From assembly GCF_030580675.1 (NCBI RefSeq), contig NZ_JAUQUB010000008.1:1-55506 (forward strand): a stretch of 55,506 bases of DNA, read 5' to 3'. The notes beneath the pieces are model-generated. The model searched no databases. It was not told the origin of the DNA and saw only the letters and a program-made list of their open reading frames with translations. Shown here piece by piece: positions 34,620 to 45,100 of the stretch (positions are counted from its first letter, which is position 1; the number at the start of each line of letters is the position of its first letter). A program made the position numbers and the translations under genes. This DNA is from Antiquaquibacter soli. GTDB taxonomy: Bacteria > Actinomycetota > Actinomycetes > Actinomycetales > Microbacteriaceae.

Positions 34620-35527
34620 GAGTCCTCCCCGGCCACACCGACGAGAGCGGCGCCGACCGCCGCAGCGGGGAACCCGGCGGGCACCACGGCAACCCGAGAG
34701 CTGAGGTCCACCGAGGCGAGGAACGCCGAGGCGCCCTCCCAGGATCGCAGCACCCCGACGACGTCGTCGAGCAGCTCCCCGCCGAGCGACGAGAGTCCGC
34801 CGCCGATCACGACGCTGTCGACGTCGACGGTGAGCACGAGCAGGCGCACGGCCGCGGCGACGTTCTCGACGAGTCGCGATCGGACCTCGACCGCGAGCGG
34901 CTCGCCCGCGGCGGCCGCCGCGAAGAGCGCGCGAGCGGGCTTGGGGTCGTCGGTCGGCCACTGCCGCGCGATCGCGGAGCCCGACGCGACCATCTCGAGG
35001 CACCCGCGCTGACCGCACGGGCACTCCGGGCCCGCAGGGTCCACGGGGATGTGCCCGACCTCTCCGGCCGCCCCGCGCGCCCCGCGCCACAGCCGTCCGC
35101 GCAGCACGAGCCCGGCGGCGAGCCCGGTGCCGAGGTTGAGGTAGGCCATCGAATGCTCGGGGTCGCGCCCGAGGAGTCGGAACGCTCCGAGCGCGGCGGC
35201 GTTCACGTCGTTGTCGATCCGCACCGGGCGGCCCAGCCGGCCCGCGAGGGCGGCTCCGAGGGGCAGGTCGTCGATACCGAGGTTGACGGCGTGGACGACG
35301 CGGCCCGCGGCATCCACCGCCCCGGGCACGCCGATGCCGATCGACTCGAAACCGGCGATGTCCGTTCCGGCCGCGGCGGCGAGGTCCGTCACCGCGGCGA
35401 CGGCGGTGTCGAGCACCGCGTCGTGGCCGAAGCCCGTCGGGAGGCGCAGCTGGTGCTCGACCGCTCCGTCATCGCGGATGGCGACGGCATCCGTCTTCGT
35501 TCCACCGATGTCGATGCCGACCCTCAT
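34607..35527 (-). CDS. ROK-family sugar kinase (probable N-acetylglucosamine kinase)
   Basis: 306 residues. ATP-binding start GIDIGGTKTDAVAI, sugar site IDNDVNAAALGAF, catalytic GEVGHIPVDPAGPECPCGQRGCLEMVASG with the ROK zinc motif CxCGxxGCxE, and a glycine-rich SVVIGGGLSSLGG. It has no DNA-binding N-terminus. Position between the ABC permease (4-nt overlap) and nagB argues for phosphorylation of imported GlcNAc (or glucosamine). Confidence 0.9.
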   Translation of the reverse strand: MRVGIDIGGTKTDAVAIRDDGAVEHQLRLPTGFGHDAVLDTAVAAVTDLAAAAGTDIAGFESIGIGVPGAVDAAGRVVHAVNLGIDDLPLGAALAGRLGRPVRIDNDVNAAALGAFRLLGRDPEHSMAYLNLGTGLAAGLVLRGRLWRGARGAAGEVGHIPVDPAGPECPCGQRGCLEMVASGSAIARQWPTDDPKPARALFAAAAAGEPLAVEVRSRLVENVAAAVRLLVLTVDVDSVVIGGGLSSLGGELLDDVVGVLRSWEGASAFLASVDLSSRVAVVPAGFPAAAVGAALVGVAGEDSWPR

Positions 35528-36363
35528 CCCTTCACCGCCCCCGCGACGAGTCCCGACGTGAGCCGGCCCTGCACGATGAGGAAGAAGACGATGACGGGGA
35601 CCGCGACGAGCGTCGAGGCGGCCATGACCTGGCCCCAGTCGGTCTCTCGCGTGGCACTCGCCTGCACGAAGCCGCGCAGCCACAGCGGGAGGGTCTGGTT
35701 GGCCTCCGAGGGCAGCAGCACGAGGGCGACGGTGAACTCGTTCCACGCCTGGAGGAACGCGTACACCCCGGATGCCACGAGCCCCGGTGCGAGCAGCGGG
35801 AAGGTGATGCGCATGAAGGCACCGAAGCGCGAGAGCCCGTCGACCATGGCGGCCTCCTCGAGATCGGCCGGGATGCCCGCGACGAAGCCGCGCAGCATCC
35901 AGATCGTGAACGGCACGACGGCCGCCGTGTAGATGACGCTCGGTCCGATGACGGAGTCGAGCAGGCCCACGCTCGAGACCATCTTGTACTGGGCGATGAA
36001 GAGCCCCTCGGCGGGGAGCATCTGCACGACGAGCACCGCGACGACGAAGGACGTGCGCCCCCGGAAGCGGAAGCGGCTGATCGCGAGGGCCGCGAGGAAC
36101 GCGAACAGCAGGCACGCGACGACGACGGTGAGGGTGATCGCGAGGCTCATGCCGAGGGCGCGGAAGAAGGAGCCGTCGGCGAGTGCGCCCGCGTAGTTGC
36201 TGCCGGTCGGGCGAGCCGGGAAGAACGTGGGGATGAACGAGTTCAGTACCGCCGTGGGGATGAGCGACGAGCTCACCATCCAGTACACGGGGAACGCCCA
36301 CAGTGCGGCGATGACGACGGCCAGCGCCGACAGGAGCAGTCGACGGATGCGGACGCGGGTCAT
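35524..36363 (-). CDS. Sugar ABC transporter permease (MalG type)
   Basis: 279 residues with six membrane helices and the EAA-loop GFVAGIPADLEEAAMVDGLSRFGAFMRITFPLLAPGL that contacts the ATPase. It pairs with the MalF-type permease upstream (4-nt overlap). No ATPase gene lies in the operon, as is common for actinobacterial carbohydrate importers that share an MsiK-like ATPase. Confidence 0.93.
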   Translation of the reverse strand: MTRVRIRRLLLSALAVVIAALWAFPVYWMVSSSLIPTAVLNSFIPTFFPARPTGSNYAGALADGSFFRALGMSLAITLTVVVACLLFAFLAALAISRFRFRGRTSFVVAVLVVQMLPAEGLFIAQYKMVSSVGLLDSVIGPSVIYTAAVVPFTIWMLRGFVAGIPADLEEAAMVDGLSRFGAFMRITFPLLAPGLVASGVYAFLQAWNEFTVALVLLPSEANQTLPLWLRGFVQASATRETDWGQVMAASTLVAVPVIVFFLIVQGRLTSGLVAGAVKG

Positions 36364-37265
36364 TGCTGGTCCTCCTTCAGGAGCGACCGGATGTAGAACC
36401 AGCTGAGCGCGATGGTGATCGCGAGCACGAGGATGGAGACGGCACTGGCCATCCCGAAGTCCTGGGCGCTCGTGCCGAGCTTGTAGATGTAGGTGCCGAG
36501 CAGGTCGTAGTCGCTCGCCTTGCTGCCGGCATCCTGGAGCATCGTGATCTGGGTGAAGACCCGCAGGTCCCAGATGAGCTGGAGAAGAAGCACGATCGCG
36601 ATGACGGGGCGGACGAGCGGCAGGATGATCGACCAGAACCTCTGCCAGCCGTTCGCGCCGTCCAGCTGGGCTGCCTCCATCACCTCCTCGGAGACCTGGG
36701 TGAGGCCCGCGTAGACGCTGAAGGAGACGAACGGCACGCTCATCCAGACGACGATGATGCTCGCGACGAGGAAGAACGTGATCGGGCTCGCGAGCCACTG
36801 GAAGCGGTAGAGCTCGACGCCGGGGATCATGTCGAGCACGTAGTTGATGACGCCGCGCCGCCAGTCGAACAGCCAGATCCAGACGGTCATCGCGGCGACC
36901 ACCGGCATCGACCACGCCAGCAGGAGCGCGACCTGCAGGATGAGCCGGGCCGTCCTCGTGACGGCGGTCATGAGCAGCGCGAGGAGTGTGCCGACGACCA
37001 AAGTGACGGCCGCGGTGATCACGCAGAACGCGAGGGAGCGGGCGACGACGACCCAGAGGGCGCCGTCGGTCGCGAGGGTGATGAAGTTCTCGAGGCCCAC
37101 GAAGGGCGCGGGCTGCCCGAACTGCTGGGCGAGCCCGTACTCGTGCAGCGAGGTGACGATCTGCCAGACGAGCGGGTAGCCCATGCCGAGCAGCAGGATC
37201 GCGACCGCCGGCAGGAGCAGGAGGTACGGGGTGCGCGAGCGGCGCAGGGTGACGGATGACGACAT
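36360..37265 (-). CDS. Sugar ABC transporter permease (MalF type)
   Basis: 301 residues with six membrane helices and the EAA-loop VSEEVMEAAQLDGANGWQRFWSIILPLVRPV. The ATG at 37265 is preceded by AAAGGAGG at good distance, which decides the start over longer frames. Together with the MalG-type subunit it forms the membrane channel of a CUT1 importer for a di- or amino-sugar. Confidence 0.93.
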   Translation of the reverse strand: MSSSVTLRRSRTPYLLLLPAVAILLLGMGYPLVWQIVTSLHEYGLAQQFGQPAPFVGLENFITLATDGALWVVVARSLAFCVITAAVTLVVGTLLALLMTAVTRTARLILQVALLLAWSMPVVAAMTVWIWLFDWRRGVINYVLDMIPGVELYRFQWLASPITFFLVASIIVVWMSVPFVSFSVYAGLTQVSEEVMEAAQLDGANGWQRFWSIILPLVRPVIAIVLLLQLIWDLRVFTQITMLQDAGSKASDYDLLGTYIYKLGTSAQDFGMASAVSILVLAITIALSWFYIRSLLKEDQQ

Positions 37266-37353
37266 GGGGGTACCTCCTTTCGGTGGGGTGAGCGGTGGTT
37301 CAGTGCGGCTGGTGCGGCGAGCGGGACCTGGCATCCCGCCCGCCGCACACCTG

Positions 37354-38643
37354 TTAGCCGTTGAGCAGAGCGGTGATCTTCTCGTCGTACTCGGCTGCGA
37401 GCGCCGGGATGTCCCCGCCCTCGTTGACCTTGCCGAAGAACTCCTCGAGCAGGCCCGAGCCCTCGACCGCGGCCCAGCCGGGCGCGGCGGGGGTCAGCTT
37501 GCTCCCCGCGGCGGACTCGCGCAGCGCGACGGCGAACTGGTCGTCGCCGAGCGAGTCGGCGTAGTCCAGGTTGGCCGGACCGAGGCCGTTCTCGCCGAGC
37601 ATCGTCTGGTACTCCTCGGAGAAGATGATCTTCATCAGCTCCTTCGCGGCGGCCTGGTTCTTGCTCGCCGCGGAGATCGCGATGTTGGAGCCGCCCGCGA
37701 ACACCGGCGCCACTCCGCCGTCGACGCCCGGGAGCACGAAGGTGCCGAACACCTCGTCGTTCCAGGTCGCGACCTGCTTGGTGTCGTCGTTGGGGTCCGG
37801 AGCGAGGTCGCCGATCGACCAGTGCGCCCAGCCGGGTGCGATGATCGTCGCCGCCTCGGGCGCGCCCGTGGCCTCGTTGTTGTTGATGTTCACCCACGGC
37901 GTGCTGTCGTACTCCGTGACCGGGGCGAGCGAGGCGCTCTGGAACAGCGACTGCAGCTGGGTGAGACCCTCGATCGTGTTCGGGTCGGAGAGGGTGGACA
38001 CCCACTGGTCGCCGTCCTTGACCGCGAGCTCTCCGCCGTTGGCGAAGATCCACGAGATGCCGTTGCGCCAGTCCTGGCCGCCGATGTAGAAGCCCGACTG
38101 CGTCGCCGTCTTCAGGGATGCCGCGGTCTCGTTGAACTCGGCGAGGGTCGTCGGCACCTCCTTGCCGGCAGCCGACCAGATGTCCTTGCGGTAGAACATG
38201 TAGCGCGAACCGAAGTAGTACGGGAGCGCGTAGTTCGCCCCGTCGACCTCGCCGATCTCCACGAACGACGGCAGCAGGGAGTCGCCGCCGAGCTCGTCGT
38301 ACATGTCGCTGATGTCGGTGAAGGCGCCGACGGTCGTGAAGGTCGGCGACCACGTGTTGCCGATCTCGACGACGTCCGGGGTATTCTCGGCATCAGGCAG
38401 GGCTGTGGTGAGCTTGGACAGAGCGTCGCCCCAGGACTGCTCCTCGATAGTGAGGGTGCCCCCGGTTGCGTCCGCGTACTCGGTCTTAAGGTAGTCGCGC
38501 AGCGCATCCGGGGTGTCACCGCCCATCAGCCACAGGGTGATGTCCGTGCCGCCCGCGTCTTCGGGGGCTGGCGTGGAGCACCCGGCGAGCACGAGAAGCG
38601 CGGCGGTGGCCGCGGCGACCGCTCCGATCTTCTTCATTGTCAT
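37354..38643 (-). CDS. Sugar ABC transporter substrate-binding lipoprotein
   Basis: 429 residues. Lipoprotein signal peptide with lipobox LAGC (Cys22). The family-1 solute-binding fold is indicated by GTDITLWLMGGDTPDALRDYLKTEYADATGGTLTIEEQSWGDALSKLTTAL and the PYYFGSRYMFYRKDIWSAAG region. An AAGGAAG ribosome site precedes ATG-ACA-ATG, so the start may be either of two ATGs. It lies 62 nt downstream of the ROK repressor. Likely cargo: GlcNAc or chitooligosaccharides, from the operon partners. Confidence 0.93.
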   Translation of the reverse strand: MTMKKIGAVAAATAALLVLAGCSTPAPEDAGGTDITLWLMGGDTPDALRDYLKTEYADATGGTLTIEEQSWGDALSKLTTALPDAENTPDVVEIGNTWSPTFTTVGAFTDISDMYDELGGDSLLPSFVEIGEVDGANYALPYYFGSRYMFYRKDIWSAAGKEVPTTLAEFNETAASLKTATQSGFYIGGQDWRNGISWIFANGGELAVKDGDQWVSTLSDPNTIEGLTQLQSLFQSASLAPVTEYDSTPWVNINNNEATGAPEAATIIAPGWAHWSIGDLAPDPNDDTKQVATWNDEVFGTFVLPGVDGGVAPVFAGGSNIAISAASKNQAAAKELMKIIFSEEYQTMLGENGLGPANLDYADSLGDDQFAVALRESAAGSKLTPAAPGWAAVEGSGLLEEFFGKVNEGGDIPALAAEYDEKITALLNG

Positions 38644-38705
38644 TGTGTGTCTTCCTTCTAGTGGGACTCACGCGACGCCTGGCTGGCGCCTCGCTGGTGC
38701 AAGGG

Positions 38706-39845
38706 TCAGGAGACCCCGAGCTGCGCGGAGAGGACCATGGCGGCGGCGCCGCGCATGACGATGTCCTCTCCGAGCGCTGTCATCCGCAGCGTCAGATCGC
38801 CGTGGAACTCGGCCATCGTGCGACTGCGGAGCGTGTCGATGGTCGCGCTCGCGAGCGTGCCATCGAGGAGTTCGGTCGGTCCGCTCAGCACGACCTCAGC
38901 GAGGTTGAGCGCTCCGACGACGGGGGCGAGGGCGATGCCGAGCCGCTGGCCGGCCTCCCTCAGCACCTGGGCGCGGGCATCCGCGTCGGCTGCCGCCGCG
39001 AGCGCGCCCTGCAGCCGCGGAGTGGCGAGCCACGTCTCGAGGCAGCCGCGCTTGCCGCACACGCACTCGGCTCCGCCGTCGGTGCCGACGACGACGTGGC
39101 CGATCTCGCCCGCGGCGAAGCGGCTGCCGTAGAGCGGGGTGCCGTCGAGCAGGAGCGCGGCACCCACACCGTGCCCGACCTTGATGAGCATCATGTCGCT
39201 GTCGGCGCCCCCGAAGCTGTGCTCGGCGAGTGCGGCGGCGTTCGCGTCGTTGGCGACGACCACCGGAACGCCGAAGCGGTCGGCGAGGATGCCCTGCAGA
39301 TCCACGTTCGCCCACCCGAGGTTCGGGGCGCTCAGCACGACTCCGGCGAGGTCGACGATGCCGGGGGATCCGACGCCGAGCCCGAGCAGCGGACGCGTGG
39401 CGTGGGCGACGAGCTGCTCGGCGAGGGTGACGACGAGGGCCGTGGCATCCTCTCCCGTGGCTCCCGCGAGGGGCAGCTCCGCGCGGTGGAGGATCTGCCC
39501 GTCGAGGTCGAGCACGGCGCCCCGGAAGGTGGCGTACTCCGAGAGGTCGATGCCGACGATCTGGAAGGAATTGCGGTCGAGGTCGAGGAGGGTTGCCGGC
39601 TTGCCGGGTCGGGCGTCCTCGCGCTGCCCCACCTCGATGATGAGCCGCTCGAGGATGAGCTCGGCGACGAGGTCGGAGATCGTGACGCGCGTGAGGCCGG
39701 TCTCGCGGGCGATGTCGGCGCGCGAGAGCTGACCGGTGCGGTAGAGCGTCTGGAGCACGAGCGCGCGGTTGTGCCCGCGGGCGTGCTCCGGCAGCACCTT
39801 GGTGGTCGGGCGCAGTGCCCGTCCGGTCGTGAACCCCGTCGTCAT
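38706..39845 (-). CDS. ROK-family transcriptional repressor (NagC-like)
   Basis: 379 residues. N-terminal winged HTH (GHNRALVLQTLYRTGQLSRADIARETGLTRVTISDLVAELILERLIIEVG), then a ROK domain with the zinc motif CVCGKRGCLE and sugar-binding VVANDANAAALAEHSF. The ATP loop reads GIDLSEY rather than DxGGT, so it should bind but not phosphorylate sugar. It is first in the operon; a 27-bp palindrome touches its start codon. It probably represses the whole amino-sugar operon until ligand binds. Confidence 0.92.
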   Translation of the reverse strand: MTTGFTTGRALRPTTKVLPEHARGHNRALVLQTLYRTGQLSRADIARETGLTRVTISDLVAELILERLIIEVGQREDARPGKPATLLDLDRNSFQIVGIDLSEYATFRGAVLDLDGQILHRAELPLAGATGEDATALVVTLAEQLVAHATRPLLGLGVGSPGIVDLAGVVLSAPNLGWANVDLQGILADRFGVPVVVANDANAAALAEHSFGGADSDMMLIKVGHGVGAALLLDGTPLYGSRFAAGEIGHVVVGTDGGAECVCGKRGCLETWLATPRLQGALAAAADADARAQVLREAGQRLGIALAPVVGALNLAEVVLSGPTELLDGTLASATIDTLRSRTMAEFHGDLTLRMTALGEDIVMRGAAAMVLSAQLGVS

Positions 39846-39872: not shown

Positions 39873-40027
39873 CCGGCGCAAGAGGACGAACGGAGATTTA
39901 CACGCCCGTTACACGGAGGGGGGCATCCCGATCCCCAGCGCCTTCTCAGCCGCCTCCAAGCCATCGGAATCCAAACCCGACATGCTTGATACGACAACGA
40001 CGCGATCCGAGACGATCAAGGAGATCC

Positions 40028-40504
40028 ATGCGCACGCTCACCGACAGCAAGACGGCCATCGCTTTCGCGGCGGGACTGACCCTCGTCGGCGCCCTCGCCG
40101 GGTGCAGCACCACGACCTCCCCGACCGACGACACGACCGACGCCACGATGCCGGACACCACCGAGGAGACGTCGTCCCCCACCGACACCACCGACTCGGG
40201 AGACGCCACCTACGCGGACGGCACCTACAGCGCTACCGGCCAGTACCAGTCCCCGAACGGCACCGAGACCCTCGACGTCACGATCACGCTCCAGGACGAC
40301 ATCATCACCGACGTCCAGGTCGTCGGCGAGGGCACCAACCCCAACACCATCCGCTACCAGGGCGAGTTCATCGGCGGAATCGCGGCGATCGTCGTCGGCA
40401 AGGACATCGACGAGATCTCCGTGAGCAAGGTCGCCGGGTCCTCGCTCGCGAGCGGCGGCTTCAATGCCGCCGTCGAGACGATCAAGGCCGACGCTGCCGC
40501 CTAG
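40028..40504 (+). CDS. FMN-binding-domain lipoprotein
   Basis: 158 residues. Lipobox ALAGC (Cys26), a long Thr/Asp/Ser/Glu linker (about 27-65), and an FMN_bind domain (TYADGTYSATGQYQSPNGTETLDVTITLQDDIITDVQV, ending SSLASGGFNAAVETIKA). Such domains carry FMN covalently on a Thr/Ser put there by ApbE; the canonical SGAT is replaced by SGGF, so the attachment residue may be Ser in LASGG or the flavin may not be covalent. AAGGAG precedes ATG. The ApbE gene follows with overlap. Confidence 0.87.
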   Translation: MRTLTDSKTAIAFAAGLTLVGALAGCSTTTSPTDDTTDATMPDTTEETSSPTDTTDSGDATYADGTYSATGQYQSPNGTETLDVTITLQDDIITDVQVVGEGTNPNTIRYQGEFIGGIAAIVVGKDIDEISVSKVAGSSLASGGFNAAVETIKADAAA

Positions 40505-41357
40505 CCTCGAGTTCGAGGCCATCGGCACGCGCTGGCAGGTCGACAGCGCAGAAGCCCTCGAGCCAGAGCTCGTCCTCGCGATGCACGAGCGCATCGCGCG
40601 CTTCGACGCGACGTGGTCGCGGTTCCGGGATGACTCGCTCGTCAGGCGCATCGCGCGCGAGCCGGGGTCGTGGCGGCTCCCCGCCGACGCGCCCCCGCTC
40701 CTCGACCTCTACCGCCGCCTCTACGTCGCCACCGACGGCGCCGTGAGCCCGCTCGTCGGACGCTCCCTCGAAGTGCTGGGCTACGACGCCGCGTACTCGC
40801 TGCGCCCGAGCGGTCCGGCGCGGCCGGCGCCCGCGTGGGAGGACGCCGTGCGGTGGGATGGCTCGACCCTCACGGCGGTGCGGCCCGTCATGATCGACAT
40901 CGGAGCCGCCGGCAAGGGCTACCTCGTCGACCTCGTGGGCGAACTGCTCGTCGCCGGTGGCGCCACGGGCGTCGTCGTCGACGCGAGCGGGGACCTCCGG
41001 AGGTGGGATGCCGCACCCGGGTACCGCGTCGCGCTCGAGCATCCCGCCGACCCGACGAAGGCGATCGGCGTCATCGAGCTGGGCGGCCGCGCGATCTGCG
41101 CCTCGGCGACCAACCGTCGCGCGTGGGGGAACGGGCTGCACCACGTCCTCGACGCGACCACCGGGCTGCCCACCTCCCGTGTGATCGCGACGTGGGCGAT
41201 CGCCCCCACCGCGCTCGTCGCGGACGGGTGCGCGACCGCGCTGTTCTTCGCCGACGCGGACCGGATCGCCGAGGAGTTCGGCGTCCAGTTCGTGCGCGTG
41301 CACTCGACCGGGCGAGTAGAGTTCTCGCCGGACCTGGACGGGGAGATGTTCCTATGA
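40464..41357 (+). CDS. apbE: FAD:protein FMN transferase (ApbE family)
   Basis: 297 residues from the ATG at 40464, which overlaps the lipoprotein gene by 41 nt; a later non-ATG start near 40494-40500 is possible. Family motifs are FEAIGTRWQVD, FSRFRDDS-like TWSRFRDDSLVRRI, MIDIGAAGKGYLVDLV (flavin site), VVDASGDLRRW and the Mg-binding C-terminal region ALVADGCATALFFADAD. No signal peptide is apparent. It should attach FMN to the neighbouring lipoprotein and possibly to the membrane protein that follows. Confidence 0.9.
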   Translation: MPPSRRSRPTLPPSLEFEAIGTRWQVDSAEALEPELVLAMHERIARFDATWSRFRDDSLVRRIAREPGSWRLPADAPPLLDLYRRLYVATDGAVSPLVGRSLEVLGYDAAYSLRPSGPARPAPAWEDAVRWDGSTLTAVRPVMIDIGAAGKGYLVDLVGELLVAGGATGVVVDASGDLRRWDAAPGYRVALEHPADPTKAIGVIELGGRAICASATNRRAWGNGLHHVLDATTGLPTSRVIATWAIAPTALVADGCATALFFADADRIAEEFGVQFVRVHSTGRVEFSPDLDGEMFL

Positions 41358-42886
41358 AGCAGTGGCTCGATCGCGTCACCGGTGCCGTCACGATGTACAG
41401 CCTGCTGCTCATCGTGCTCGGTGCGACCACGGTCCTGGCCCTCGTGCTCTCGTTCTTCGGGCAGATGTCGGGGTACTCGCCGCTCGCGATCGTCGTGACG
41501 AACGTCGTCGCCGTCGGGGTGACGGTCGGCACGAGCATCCTGTTCGGGCTCGTCTTCCGGGCGAAGCCGCACCTCGAGTCGGCGATCATCACCGGCGTGC
41601 TGCTGTTCTTCCTCTTCCCGCCGACGCTCGACCCGAAGCAGCTCGCGGGGGTCGCGATGGCCGGCGCCGTGGCGAGCCTCTCGAAGTACGTGCTCGCGAT
41701 CCGCGGCCGCCACGTCGCCAACCCCGCGGCGATCGGCGCCGTCGTCGTCTCGCTCACCGGACTCAACTTCGCGAGCTGGTGGGTGGCGACCCCGTACCTG
41801 CTGCCGCTCGTCGCGATCGGCGCCTTCCTCGTGCTCTACCGCACGCAGCGCTTCAGCATGGCCGGGGTGTTCATCGGCGTCGCCGTGGTGATCTGGGTGA
41901 CCCGCTATCTGCTGCAGGGCAGCGATCTCGCCGCAGGGCTCTCCTTCGTGCTGCTGTCGTACCCCACCGTCTTCCTCGCCGGGTTCATGCTCACCGAGCC
42001 GCTCACCCTGCCCCCGCGGCGCTGGCAGCAGCTGCTCGTCGCCGCCGTCGTCGGCGTGCTGTTCGCCTCGACGTTCGCGATCGGCCCCGTCGCGCCCGGC
42101 TGGCCGGTGCTCTACTCGAGCCCCGAGCTCGCGCTCGTCGCGGGCAACGTCATCGCCTTCTTCTTCGGGCAGCGCCGGGCGATCCGCATGGAGTACCTCG
42201 GCAAGCGCGAACTGAGCCCGTCGACGTGGGAGCTGTCGTTCCAGCCGTCGCGACCGGTGCGGTTCCTGCCCGGCCAGTACATGGAGCTGACCATCCCCCA
42301 CCGCCGCGCGGACTTCCGCGGCAGCCGTCGCTACTTCTCCATCGCCTCCGCGCCGACCGACCACGGCCCGCTGACCTTCGCGATCACCGTGCCGAGCAAG
42401 TCATCGAGCTTCAAGCGCGCCCTGCTCGACCTCGAGCCGGGTGCCGAAGTGCGCGGAACGGGTGTGGGCGGCGACTTCGCCCTGCCACGAGATGTCTCGC
42501 AACCGCTGCTCCTCGTCGCGGGCGGCATCGGCATCACTCCCTTCGCCTCGCAGCTCGCGCACGCCGCCGAGCGCGGCGAGCACCGCGACGTCACCGTCGT
42601 CTACGCGACGAGCACGCCGGGCGCGCTGCCCTACCAGGAGCTCCTCGAGCGAACCGGGGCGCGCGTCATCCTGTTCGCCCCGGACGCCCCGTCGCCGCTC
42701 CCGGCCGGCTGGATCCACGGCGGCACCGGCCGCGTCACCGCGGAGGGCATCGCGGCGACGGTTCCGGATGCCGCGCGCCGGCGCGCCTTCGTCTCGGGGC
42801 CGCCCGCCCTCGTGGGCGACCTCCGCCGAGCCCTGCGCGCGCAGGGAGTGCGGCGCGTGCACACGGACTACTTCTCGGGCTACTAG
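41354..42886 (+). CDS. RnfD/NqrB-like membrane domain fused to a ferredoxin-NADP reductase module
   Basis: 510 residues. The first about 275 hold some eight to ten membrane helices with an RnfD/NqrB-like block (LRGRHVANPAAIGAVVVSLTG equivalent, and PTVFLAGFMLTEPLTLPPRRWQQ). The cytosolic half is a ferredoxin-reductase domain: FAD motif RRYFSIAS, NAD motif LLLVAGGIGITPFASQL, and an acidic FSGY terminus. It would take electrons from NAD(P)H into the membrane. Coupled to apbE by ATGA; its stop overlaps the stop of the convergent surface-protein gene. Confidence 0.88.
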   Translation: MKQWLDRVTGAVTMYSLLLIVLGATTVLALVLSFFGQMSGYSPLAIVVTNVVAVGVTVGTSILFGLVFRAKPHLESAIITGVLLFFLFPPTLDPKQLAGVAMAGAVASLSKYVLAIRGRHVANPAAIGAVVVSLTGLNFASWWVATPYLLPLVAIGAFLVLYRTQRFSMAGVFIGVAVVIWVTRYLLQGSDLAAGLSFVLLSYPTVFLAGFMLTEPLTLPPRRWQQLLVAAVVGVLFASTFAIGPVAPGWPVLYSSPELALVAGNVIAFFFGQRRAIRMEYLGKRELSPSTWELSFQPSRPVRFLPGQYMELTIPHRRADFRGSRRYFSIASAPTDHGPLTFAITVPSKSSSFKRALLDLEPGAEVRGTGVGGDFALPRDVSQPLLLVAGGIGITPFASQLAHAAERGEHRDVTVVYATSTPGALPYQELLERTGARVILFAPDAPSPLPAGWIHGGTGRVTAEGIAATVPDAARRRAFVSGPPALVGDLRRALRAQGVRRVHTDYFSGY

Positions 42887-44979
42887 GCCCTCCGGGTCCG
42901 GCGCGCGAGCAGCACTCCCCCGAGCACGGTGAGCACTCCCGCCGCGACGATGCCGCCGACGGGGATGCCGCTGCCGGTGCTCGCCAACGGCCGCGGGTCC
43001 GCGGGAGCGGCGGCCGGGAGCTGCACCACCCACTCGTGCACGGCAGCCTCGCCGGAGTTGCCCGCGGCATCCGTCGCCCGAACCGATAGCTCGTGCCCGC
43101 CGGCGGCGAGACCCGTCAGCTCGAGGGGGCTCGCGCACTCGTCGAAGGCCCCGCCATCGAGCGAGCACTCGAACATCGCGAGGGGTGCGGCAGCGACAGC
43201 GATCGGGAGACCGACGGGCGACGCATCCGTCGAGCGGAACTCGAAGGTCGCGCTGGCCCCGCTCGTCAGGGGCGCGCGGGTGAACTCGACCACGGGTGCA
43301 ACGGTATCGACAGTCCACGTCGCCGTCGCCGACGCCGTCAACCCGGCGTTGTCGGTGACCGAGATCACGACCTCGTGCTCCCCCTCTGCGAGGCCGCTGA
43401 GCGAGATCGGCGACGAGCACGGCACCGAGTCGCCGTCCGCCGAGCAGGACTGCGACTGGATGCCCGAGCCCGTGTCCACGACCGTGAAGACGATCGACGC
43501 GCTCGCCTCGTTCGTGAACTCGGCGGGCGCGGACTCGATCTCGACAGTCGGCGGCACGGTGTCCACGAGCCAGTCGTGGCCCACGGAATCGGACGTGTTG
43601 CCGGCGTTGTCGACCGCGATGACGCCGAACTCGTGCTCGCCGTCGCCCAGCCCGGAGAATTCGAAGGGCGACGCGCACGGGTCGACGATGGTGCCGTCCA
43701 GCACGCACACGAAGCGTGCCACTCCCGACACCCAGGGATCGTGGCGTCCCTCGCCCGCCGTGAACGAGAGGGAGCCGGACGCGGAACCCGAGACCGCGGG
43801 CGGCGTGGCCGTCAGGCTGACGACGGGGCTCGTCCGATCGACGACGAACGAGCGACTCAGCGACGCCGTATTGCCGACCGCGTCGCGGGCATCCACGGTG
43901 AACGAGTACCGGCCCTCGACGTCGCTCAGCACCTGAGGCGACGCGGCGCAGGCGCCGCTGGTGTTGACCGCCTCGTCCGCGTTCTCGAAGGCGTACTCGC
44001 ACTCGAGCGTCGCGGTCGGGTCGTCGACGGTCCACGAGATGCTCGCGGGGGCGTGCGTGAGGAACGGCTCGACCTCGTCGATCGAGATCACCGGGGCGGA
44101 GGCATCCGCCGTCCAGGTTCGCTCGTCGGCGGTCTCGTTGCCGGCCCGGTCGATCGCCCAGACCGTGACGGTGTGCTCGCCGTCGGTGAGACCGTCGAGC
44201 ACGAGCGGAGAGACGCACTCGGCACGCTCGGCGTCATCGAGCGCGCACTCGAACCGGTCGATGCCGGATTGGTAGGGAGGCACGATCGTGCCCTCCGAAT
44301 CGACGTCGGCGCCCTCGAACTCGAACTGCGCCTCGGCTCCCGACTCGGTGCCGGGGTCGCTCGTGATCGACACTTCGGGCAGCACACGATCGAGGAAATA
44401 CGTGATGCTGTCGCCGCCCTCCTGCCACCACGTGTCAGTGGCGGTGACAGTGTAGGTGTGCGGTCCGTCGAGGCCGGTGTTGACGATGGAGGGCGAGTCG
44501 CAGTCGCCCGAGCTCCAGTAGGGTCCGCTCGAGCCGGTCTGCAGGTCCTCGCACCAGATGCGCCGGATGCCCGTGCGGTCCGTGACCGTGAACTCCACGT
44601 TCGGCACCGCGTTGATGTACTGCGGCAGGGGCTCGATCTGCACGACCGGGCCAGCGTCGTCGACGGTCCATACGGCGGTCGCGCCGTTGGTCGTGGGCGA
44701 GGCGAACAGCATCGTGTGGTCGCCATCGGACAGCCCGGTCACGGTGTAGCCGTCCGGGCAGGCCTGCCACGGGCCACCGTCGAGGGAGCACGTGACGTCG
44801 TCGCCGGTGTCCGTCGAGTCGATGAACTCGTAGTGGAACGTCGCCGACGTCTCGTCGGTGATGCCGACGGTTGTGCCCGTCACGACGAGGATACCCGATG
44901 CGGCGAGTGCTGGGGCGACCGGCACGACCGCGAGAGCGACCGCAACCGCGGCGGCGGACAGGAGGGCGGGTCGGTGCAC
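42883..44979 (-). CDS. LASTG-anchored surface protein with repeated Ig-like modules
   Basis: 698 residues from the GTG at 44979, chosen because GAGGAG lies upstream and a signal peptide (about 1-27, ending APALAAS) then starts properly. At least six beta-sandwich modules repeat the pattern C-x-LDG-x4-C-x-SP-x-GL-DGEH-x8-D-x-AGN, each with a close cysteine pair likely to form a disulfide. The C-terminus is LASTG (665-669), a hydrophobic helix and RRTRRA, a sorting signal of the kind used by class E sortases. No sortase lies in the window. Confidence 0.88.
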   Translation of the reverse strand: MHRPALLSAAAVAVALAVVPVAPALAASGILVVTGTTVGITDETSATFHYEFIDSTDTGDDVTCSLDGGPWQACPDGYTVTGLSDGDHTMLFASPTTNGATAVWTVDDAGPVVQIEPLPQYINAVPNVEFTVTDRTGIRRIWCEDLQTGSSGPYWSSGDCDSPSIVNTGLDGPHTYTVTATDTWWQEGGDSITYFLDRVLPEVSITSDPGTESGAEAQFEFEGADVDSEGTIVPPYQSGIDRFECALDDAERAECVSPLVLDGLTDGEHTVTVWAIDRAGNETADERTWTADASAPVISIDEVEPFLTHAPASISWTVDDPTATLECEYAFENADEAVNTSGACAASPQVLSDVEGRYSFTVDARDAVGNTASLSRSFVVDRTSPVVSLTATPPAVSGSASGSLSFTAGEGRHDPWVSGVARFVCVLDGTIVDPCASPFEFSGLGDGEHEFGVIAVDNAGNTSDSVGHDWLVDTVPPTVEIESAPAEFTNEASASIVFTVVDTGSGIQSQSCSADGDSVPCSSPISLSGLAEGEHEVVISVTDNAGLTASATATWTVDTVAPVVEFTRAPLTSGASATFEFRSTDASPVGLPIAVAAAPLAMFECSLDGGAFDECASPLELTGLAAGGHELSVRATDAAGNSGEAAVHEWVVQLPAAAPADPRPLASTGSGIPVGGIVAAGVLTVLGGVLLARRTRRA

Positions 44980-45100
44980 TGAGGACTCCTCGGAGGCAGG
45001 GATAACCCGAATATATCGAGATAAATGCACGCATGGCAATTAACTCGTCGTGGCCGCACTCGAGGCCGGCGTGCATCCTCGTTCGCCCCCTGCGAACGCA

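Follow-up and report, generated by a model that had tools for sequence, protein, structure and literature searches.

The question raised by this locus of Antiquaquibacter soli is whether three overlapping genes could together move electrons from NAD(P)H to an acceptor outside the cell, and whether such a device is a new one. The genes, for a lipoprotein, ApbE and an RnfD/NqrB-FNR fusion, fill positions 40028-42886 of the forward strand of contig NZ_JAUQUB010000008.1, within the window (the whole stretch of 55,506 nucleotides that was analysed), and lie exactly where the earlier note had placed them. We conclude that the operon represents, in an actinobacterium, the NQR/RNF-like flavinylation system, the architecture of which is known. 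Three features deserve attention: the GSS site is fixed, ApbE is leaderless, and within one family, the Microbacteriaceae, the operon is widespread and poorly covered by Pfam. The features are:

40018..40023, +: AAGGAG, resembling a ribosome-binding site, 4 bases 5' of the lipoprotein ATG (read from the sequence)
40028..40504, +: FMN-domain lipoprotein P0001, 158 aa; matched at 79 of 80 family fusion loci
40094..40105, +: lipobox LAGC with Cys26, the would-be lipid carrier; Cys invariant in 79/79 aligned family lipoproteins
40211..40501, +: FMN-binding fold, residues 62-158 of P0001, C-terminal to a linker of ~35 low-confidence residues
40433..40444, +: predicted flavinylation site AGSS (residues 136-139), acceptor Ser139 at 40442-40444; aligned with SGAT of K. 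racemifer
40451..40462, +: SGGF (residues 142-145), the motif of the earlier note, starting three residues past the end of AGSS and six past its start
40464..41357, +: ApbE FAD:protein FMN transferase P0002, 297 aa; Ser214, His227 and Asp254 conserved; without N-terminal signal or lipobox
41354..42886, +: fusion gene P0003, 510 aa; RnfD/NqrB-like membrane domain, then FNR-type domain
41354..42172, +: RnfD/NqrB-like membrane domain of P0003, residues 1-273
42173..42886, +: FNR-type FAD/NAD(P)H domain of P0003, residues 274-510 plus stop; presumably cytosolic

Gene content and spread of the operon

The gene identities, the folds, the gene order, the acceptor serine and the ApbE residues are each conserved or established. 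P0002 matches PF02424 with an E-value of 6e-36, so that apbE is present in the cluster. P0003 carries the NqrB/RnfD membrane domain (PF03116) at its N-terminus and the NAD-binding domain PF00175 at its C-terminus (31.4 bits against a cut-off of 22); no [2Fe-2S] domain was matched in it, and the covalent-flavin motif [S/T]GA[S/T] is absent from it. The A. soli genome has the fusion as its sole PF03116 match and hence lacks a separate RnfD/NqrB from which a full complex could be built; we rejected the idea that the genes belong to a full Nqr/Rnf with an RnfD/NqrB of its own. P0001 is identified as an FMN-binding protein by profile and fold; Pfam FMN_bind (PF04205) did not match it, a phmmer search of the PDB with this protein by itself returned chance hits only, and Foldseek with its model gave no hits at E<=0.001.

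From the previous in-frame stop to the conserved core of ApbE, the sole ATG/GTG/TTG in frame is ATG 40464, and the start of ApbE is predicted there, not proven. A promoter and terminator scan returned zero promoters and one terminator, the latter at chance level. Downstream lies a convergent gene (42883-45039, reverse strand) whose stop codon and that of the fusion overlap; by reading, it encodes secreted Ig-like repeats with a LASTG-type sorting signal, a membrane helix and a basic tail at the end. Upstream, 35524-39845 of the reverse strand reads as a ROK-family regulator, a sugar-binding lipoprotein and ABC permeases, and among 47 named loci a ROK-family regulator is found near the flavin genes in six and an ABC permease in five.

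With P0003 as query (E<=1e-10), matches were obtained in 87 of 199 sampled family genomes. Seventy-nine of the 87 hold 80 loci with the whole or nearly whole fusion, one of them (G122) split between two frames; the other eight have partial matches, mainly to the FNR part. The survey of three-gene co-occurrence that the earlier note had called for found all three genes together at 76 of the 80 loci, a count that leaves out L017 (refetched with a longer flank as L139), and both the order lipoprotein-ApbE-fusion and the strand agree in 76/76. Three loci of one genus (L125, L129 and L133) keep the lipoprotein and the fusion, and the 4.5 kb fetched there showed no match to ApbE; two of these, L129 and L133, have SGAT in the fusion's membrane part. 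At L013 the contig ends before the lipoprotein.

In a sample of the phylum (E<=1e-40), 8 of 396 genomes matched, A. soli itself included and one of them (G493) partial with an internal stop. A wider scan of contigs gave 54 loci, including Arthrobacter, Aeromicrobium, Ktedonobacter and CPR ones, and at L085-L088 the match is in the FNR part alone. A chosen subset of the 54 loci, from which near copies, partial rows and split rows were left out, makes up A1, A2 and A3, with 35, 32 and 28 rows besides the window's. Homologues over the whole or nearly whole fusion occur in Ktedonobacter, CPR lineages, Microbacteriaceae, Arthrobacter and Aeromicrobium, and the fusion shares 36% identity with a homologue from K. 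racemifer that has the same gene order. The string [S/T]GA[S/T] occurs in 3 of 36 A1 fusion rows, two in the FNR part and one (L079) in the membrane part, and in the membrane part of 5 of the 80 family fusions (L113, L114, L120, L129 and L133), which does not imply correspondence to the Nqr/Rnf site.

PF04205 at E<=2e-4 detects 22 of 79 family lipoproteins and PF03116 at E<=1e-5 detects 13 of 79 family fusions, limits that are our own estimate standing in for curated bit scores; Pfam surveys with curated cut-offs would therefore undercount the lineage. At E<=1, PF04205 detects 28 of 33 A2 rows and PF03116 22 of 36 A1 rows. A compact, possibly quinone-independent electron-export device would be carried by 79 of 199 sampled genomes of a single actinobacterial family.

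In a tree of the 36 fusion proteins, 22 actinobacterial-type rows are separated from the Ktedonobacter and CPR rows with branch support of 100/100; five of its labels were set by lineage, L051 as AGSS-type and L074, L075, L078 and L079 as SGAST. Among the 22 is L049, on a contig titled Acidobacteria, whose fusion pairs with a Microbacteriaceae one at 100/100; this contig is probably mis-binned. Four A2 contigs titled Saccharibacteria have the sites SGDS (L065), AGAS (L068), SGAS (L072) and SGAT (L073). Saccharibacteria are epibionts of actinobacteria, and since L065 and L068 carry the longer, actinobacterial type of ApbE, transfer between an actinobacterial host and its epibiont is possible. 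A literature search on Microbacteriaceae or Saccharibacteria found nothing on the NQR/RNF-like system in either group.

The predicted flavin site

The earlier note had described the flavinylation motif as an atypical SGGF. The site is indeed atypical, AGSS in place of [S/T]GA[S/T], but SGGF lies downstream of it and was rejected: the counterpart in the alignment with K. racemifer is AGSS, and GSS is present in 79/79 family lipoproteins. In the family alignment (A4) the Gly, Ser, Ser and Leu of the site and the lipid-carrying Cys are all invariant, and the site of the family lipoprotein profile aligns with SGAT of the solved domain 8p2a. The site pattern is fitted by 71 of the 76 three-gene loci (58 AGSS, 11 SGSS and 2 GGSS), and the remaining five have AGSS or SGSS but differ further on.

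According to the consulted part of a review, the substrate motif of ApbE is D-x-x-[S/T]-G-A-[S/T]. The P0001 site reads S-K-V-A-G-S-S, so that only the Gly and the acceptor Ser fit and three of five defined positions depart (S replaces D, A replaces S/T and S replaces A). Throughout the family loci the motif is kept solely at these two positions, and Asp stands at the first one in 16 of the 71 pattern-fitting loci. No [S/T]GA[S/T] was found along the whole of P0001; in 6 of 79 family lipoproteins the string occurs elsewhere, in the signal or linker and never in the FMN domain. The same part of the review reports that a D-to-A change in a test substrate had minor effects only, which makes the altered site more credible, and that an Ala-to-Val change lowered flavinylation. 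Given the latter and the three departures, flavinylation of Ser139 is predicted and unproven.

The departures could also mean that the site has drifted and that the lipoprotein is not covalently flavinylated, its FMN being held non-covalently or absent and ApbE serving another protein. That PF04205 fails to match the window copy would fit such drift as well. Drift, however, would hardly leave Gly-Ser-Ser-Leu invariant in 79/79; moreover, ApbE adjoins the lipoprotein in 76 of 80 loci, and at E<=0.001 PF04205 matches just one protein of the genome, which lies in a second cluster and has an ApbE of its own. We consider this explanation quite improbable, and keep Ser139 as the predicted FMN carrier.

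ApbE and its missing export signal

No N-terminal signal peptide or lipobox was found in P0002. By a simple hydropathy threshold applied before the profile-placed core, a measure other than SignalP, a hydrophobic N-terminus is present in 1 of 74 scorable family ApbEs (L089) against 77 of 79 family lipoproteins; three of 77 ApbEs were unscored (L013, cut by the contig end, and two matching late). Among the 74, every start lies too close to the core in 33 to leave room for a 12-residue segment, 11 lack any ATG/GTG/TTG in the 80 residues preceding the core, and, L089 apart, the rest fall under the threshold. Of 30 loci across the class, 15 gave a located core, frequently in a frame that was unsuitable, and the statement is confined to the family. 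In A. soli, the other ApbE seems also to start at the core (MRHAFETMGTV), a start chosen since earlier ones fall inside the FMN_bind gene, and the genome scan at E<=0.001 listed no third ApbE.

The review, in the part consulted, states that most ApbEs are secreted and that cytosolic ones are paired with intracellular targets. It also reports that an ApbE retained in the cytosol could not complement a knock-out, evidence against its acting there on exported targets, and that truncated ApbEs flavinylate truncated targets in the E. coli cytosol. An ApbE without export signal would imply either that FMN is attached before export or that ApbE leaves by another route. We tentatively raise the former, while thinking it somewhat unlikely: a cytosolic ApbE could recognise the changed site GSSLTS, close to the C-terminal end of the precursor lipoprotein, and add FMN before or during export, and the flavinylated chain would then cross the membrane. 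If true, this would explain why both A. soli ApbEs apparently lack export signals, and would contradict the view that exported ApbE flavinylates extracytosolic flavoproteins outside. Two simple tests present themselves: of the recognition range of ApbE, through the fixed GSS site, and of where the enzyme works, through its lack of a leader.

Proposed electron path and known systems

We argue that the operon very probably acts as an NQR/RNF-like flavinylation system. NAD(P)H would reduce FAD in the cytosolic FNR domain, electrons would cross the membrane via the fused RnfD/NqrB-like domain, probably on a non-covalently held flavin, and would reach FMN that ApbE attaches covalently to Ser139 of the membrane-tethered lipoprotein outside. 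From there they would leave to a small or soluble acceptor, for which ferric iron, flavins and quinones are candidates. The path is the one proposed in the consulted parts of Meheust 2021 and Huang 2024; the soluble acceptor is added here. We infer every cofactor, the membrane topology, which way the electrons flow and what takes them up, as well as the action of ApbE on this lipoprotein, and export to an extracellular acceptor without quinone can fairly be inferred. Membership in the system is supported by the domain and fold matches, the homologues, the gene order at 76 of 80 loci and the published proposal for this architecture; counting against it are the departures at the site, the ApbE without export signal, the three loci without an ApbE match, the [S/T]GA[S/T] string in the membrane part of five family fusions and the lack of a recognised acceptor gene adjoining the operon.

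What the acceptor might be was approached through the neighbours of the 47 named loci, at most 5 kb per side and with families read by eye. No acceptor gene was seen adjoining the operon, and families found in five or more loci are lineage-restricted, save one ABC-transporter family (7 loci, mixed strands). This points somewhat towards a small molecule as acceptor and away from a dedicated terminal reductase, and is silent on iron assimilation versus electron disposal. The same path could serve iron uptake, as an assimilatory reductase of ferric or siderophore-bound iron, and to this purpose we would give a chance not far below even. The linker of ~35 residues, rich in Thr/Ser/Asp, would reach little past the membrane in the model, which would suit soluble ligands, and a VIT1 iron transporter occurs in six NQR/RNF-like clusters of Meheust 2021 (PMC8238504, part consulted); against it, no iron transporter was recognised by eye among the recurring neighbour families of the 47 loci.

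Another purpose would be to supply electrons for repairing oxidised envelope proteins, as MsrPQ does, instead of reducing an external acceptor. No repair enzyme was recognised by eye beside the genes at the 47 loci, and we hold this to be unlikely, although electrons from flavinylation systems are known to reach enzymes outside the cytosol (Meheust 2021 and Huang 2024, parts consulted) and the genome also carries a cluster of the published MsrQ-like type, both of which would favour it by analogy.

The earlier note had seen a condensed three-protein chain resembling Rnf/Nqr. Its parts, likely path and resemblance stand, but a novel architecture was rejected, as the NQR/RNF-like system has been published. 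The consulted part of Meheust 2021 (PMC8238504) describes clusters in which this fusion occurs with an FMN-binding domain and genes for flavinylation. It counts 127 of them, mostly from Actinobacteria and CPR, and suggests that electrons pass in one direction, from NAD(P)H to the exterior. Huang 2024, in the part consulted, modelled the K. racemifer system. The A. soli operon shares with it the RnfD/NqrB-FNR fusion, the extracytosolic FMN-binding protein, ApbE and homology over the whole fusion, and shares the lipoprotein-ApbE-fusion order with the K. racemifer locus L067, which need not encode the protein modelled by Huang 2024. It differs in its lipid anchor (a lipobox was found in none of 14 Ktedonobacter and CPR rows), in AGSS against the published SGA[S/T], and in an ApbE longer than four short A3 rows (L066, L067, L070 and L073). 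The term RNF-like is unused in the consulted part of the RNF/NQR review PMC12174285. In B. breve, apbE and the FMN-binding SifE under iron limitation (PMC5449479, part consulted) belong to a different system.

With the Nqr/Rnf complexes the operon has in common the RnfD/NqrB fold, an NqrC/RnfG-type FMN domain and an NqrF-type FNR; unlike them, it consists of three genes, no [2Fe-2S] domain was matched in its fusion, and its RnfD-like part is without the covalent-flavin motif. The flavin-based extracellular electron transfer of Listeria uses quinone and separate proteins, Ndh2, EetA/B, PplA and FmnB; it likewise has a flavinylated lipoprotein outside and an ApbE-type transferase, but is not known to include an RnfD-FNR fusion. 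A comparison within A. soli is offered by the second flavinylation cluster (L179:775-3499, G000:C7), of the MsrQ-like type, in which a PF01794 membrane domain with PF00175 accompanies an FMN_bind protein and an apparently leaderless ApbE. Like the operon, it combines a membrane protein bearing an NAD-binding domain, an FMN_bind protein and ApbE, whereas its ferric-reductase-like membrane domain replaces RnfD and its site, SGATYTS, is canonical.
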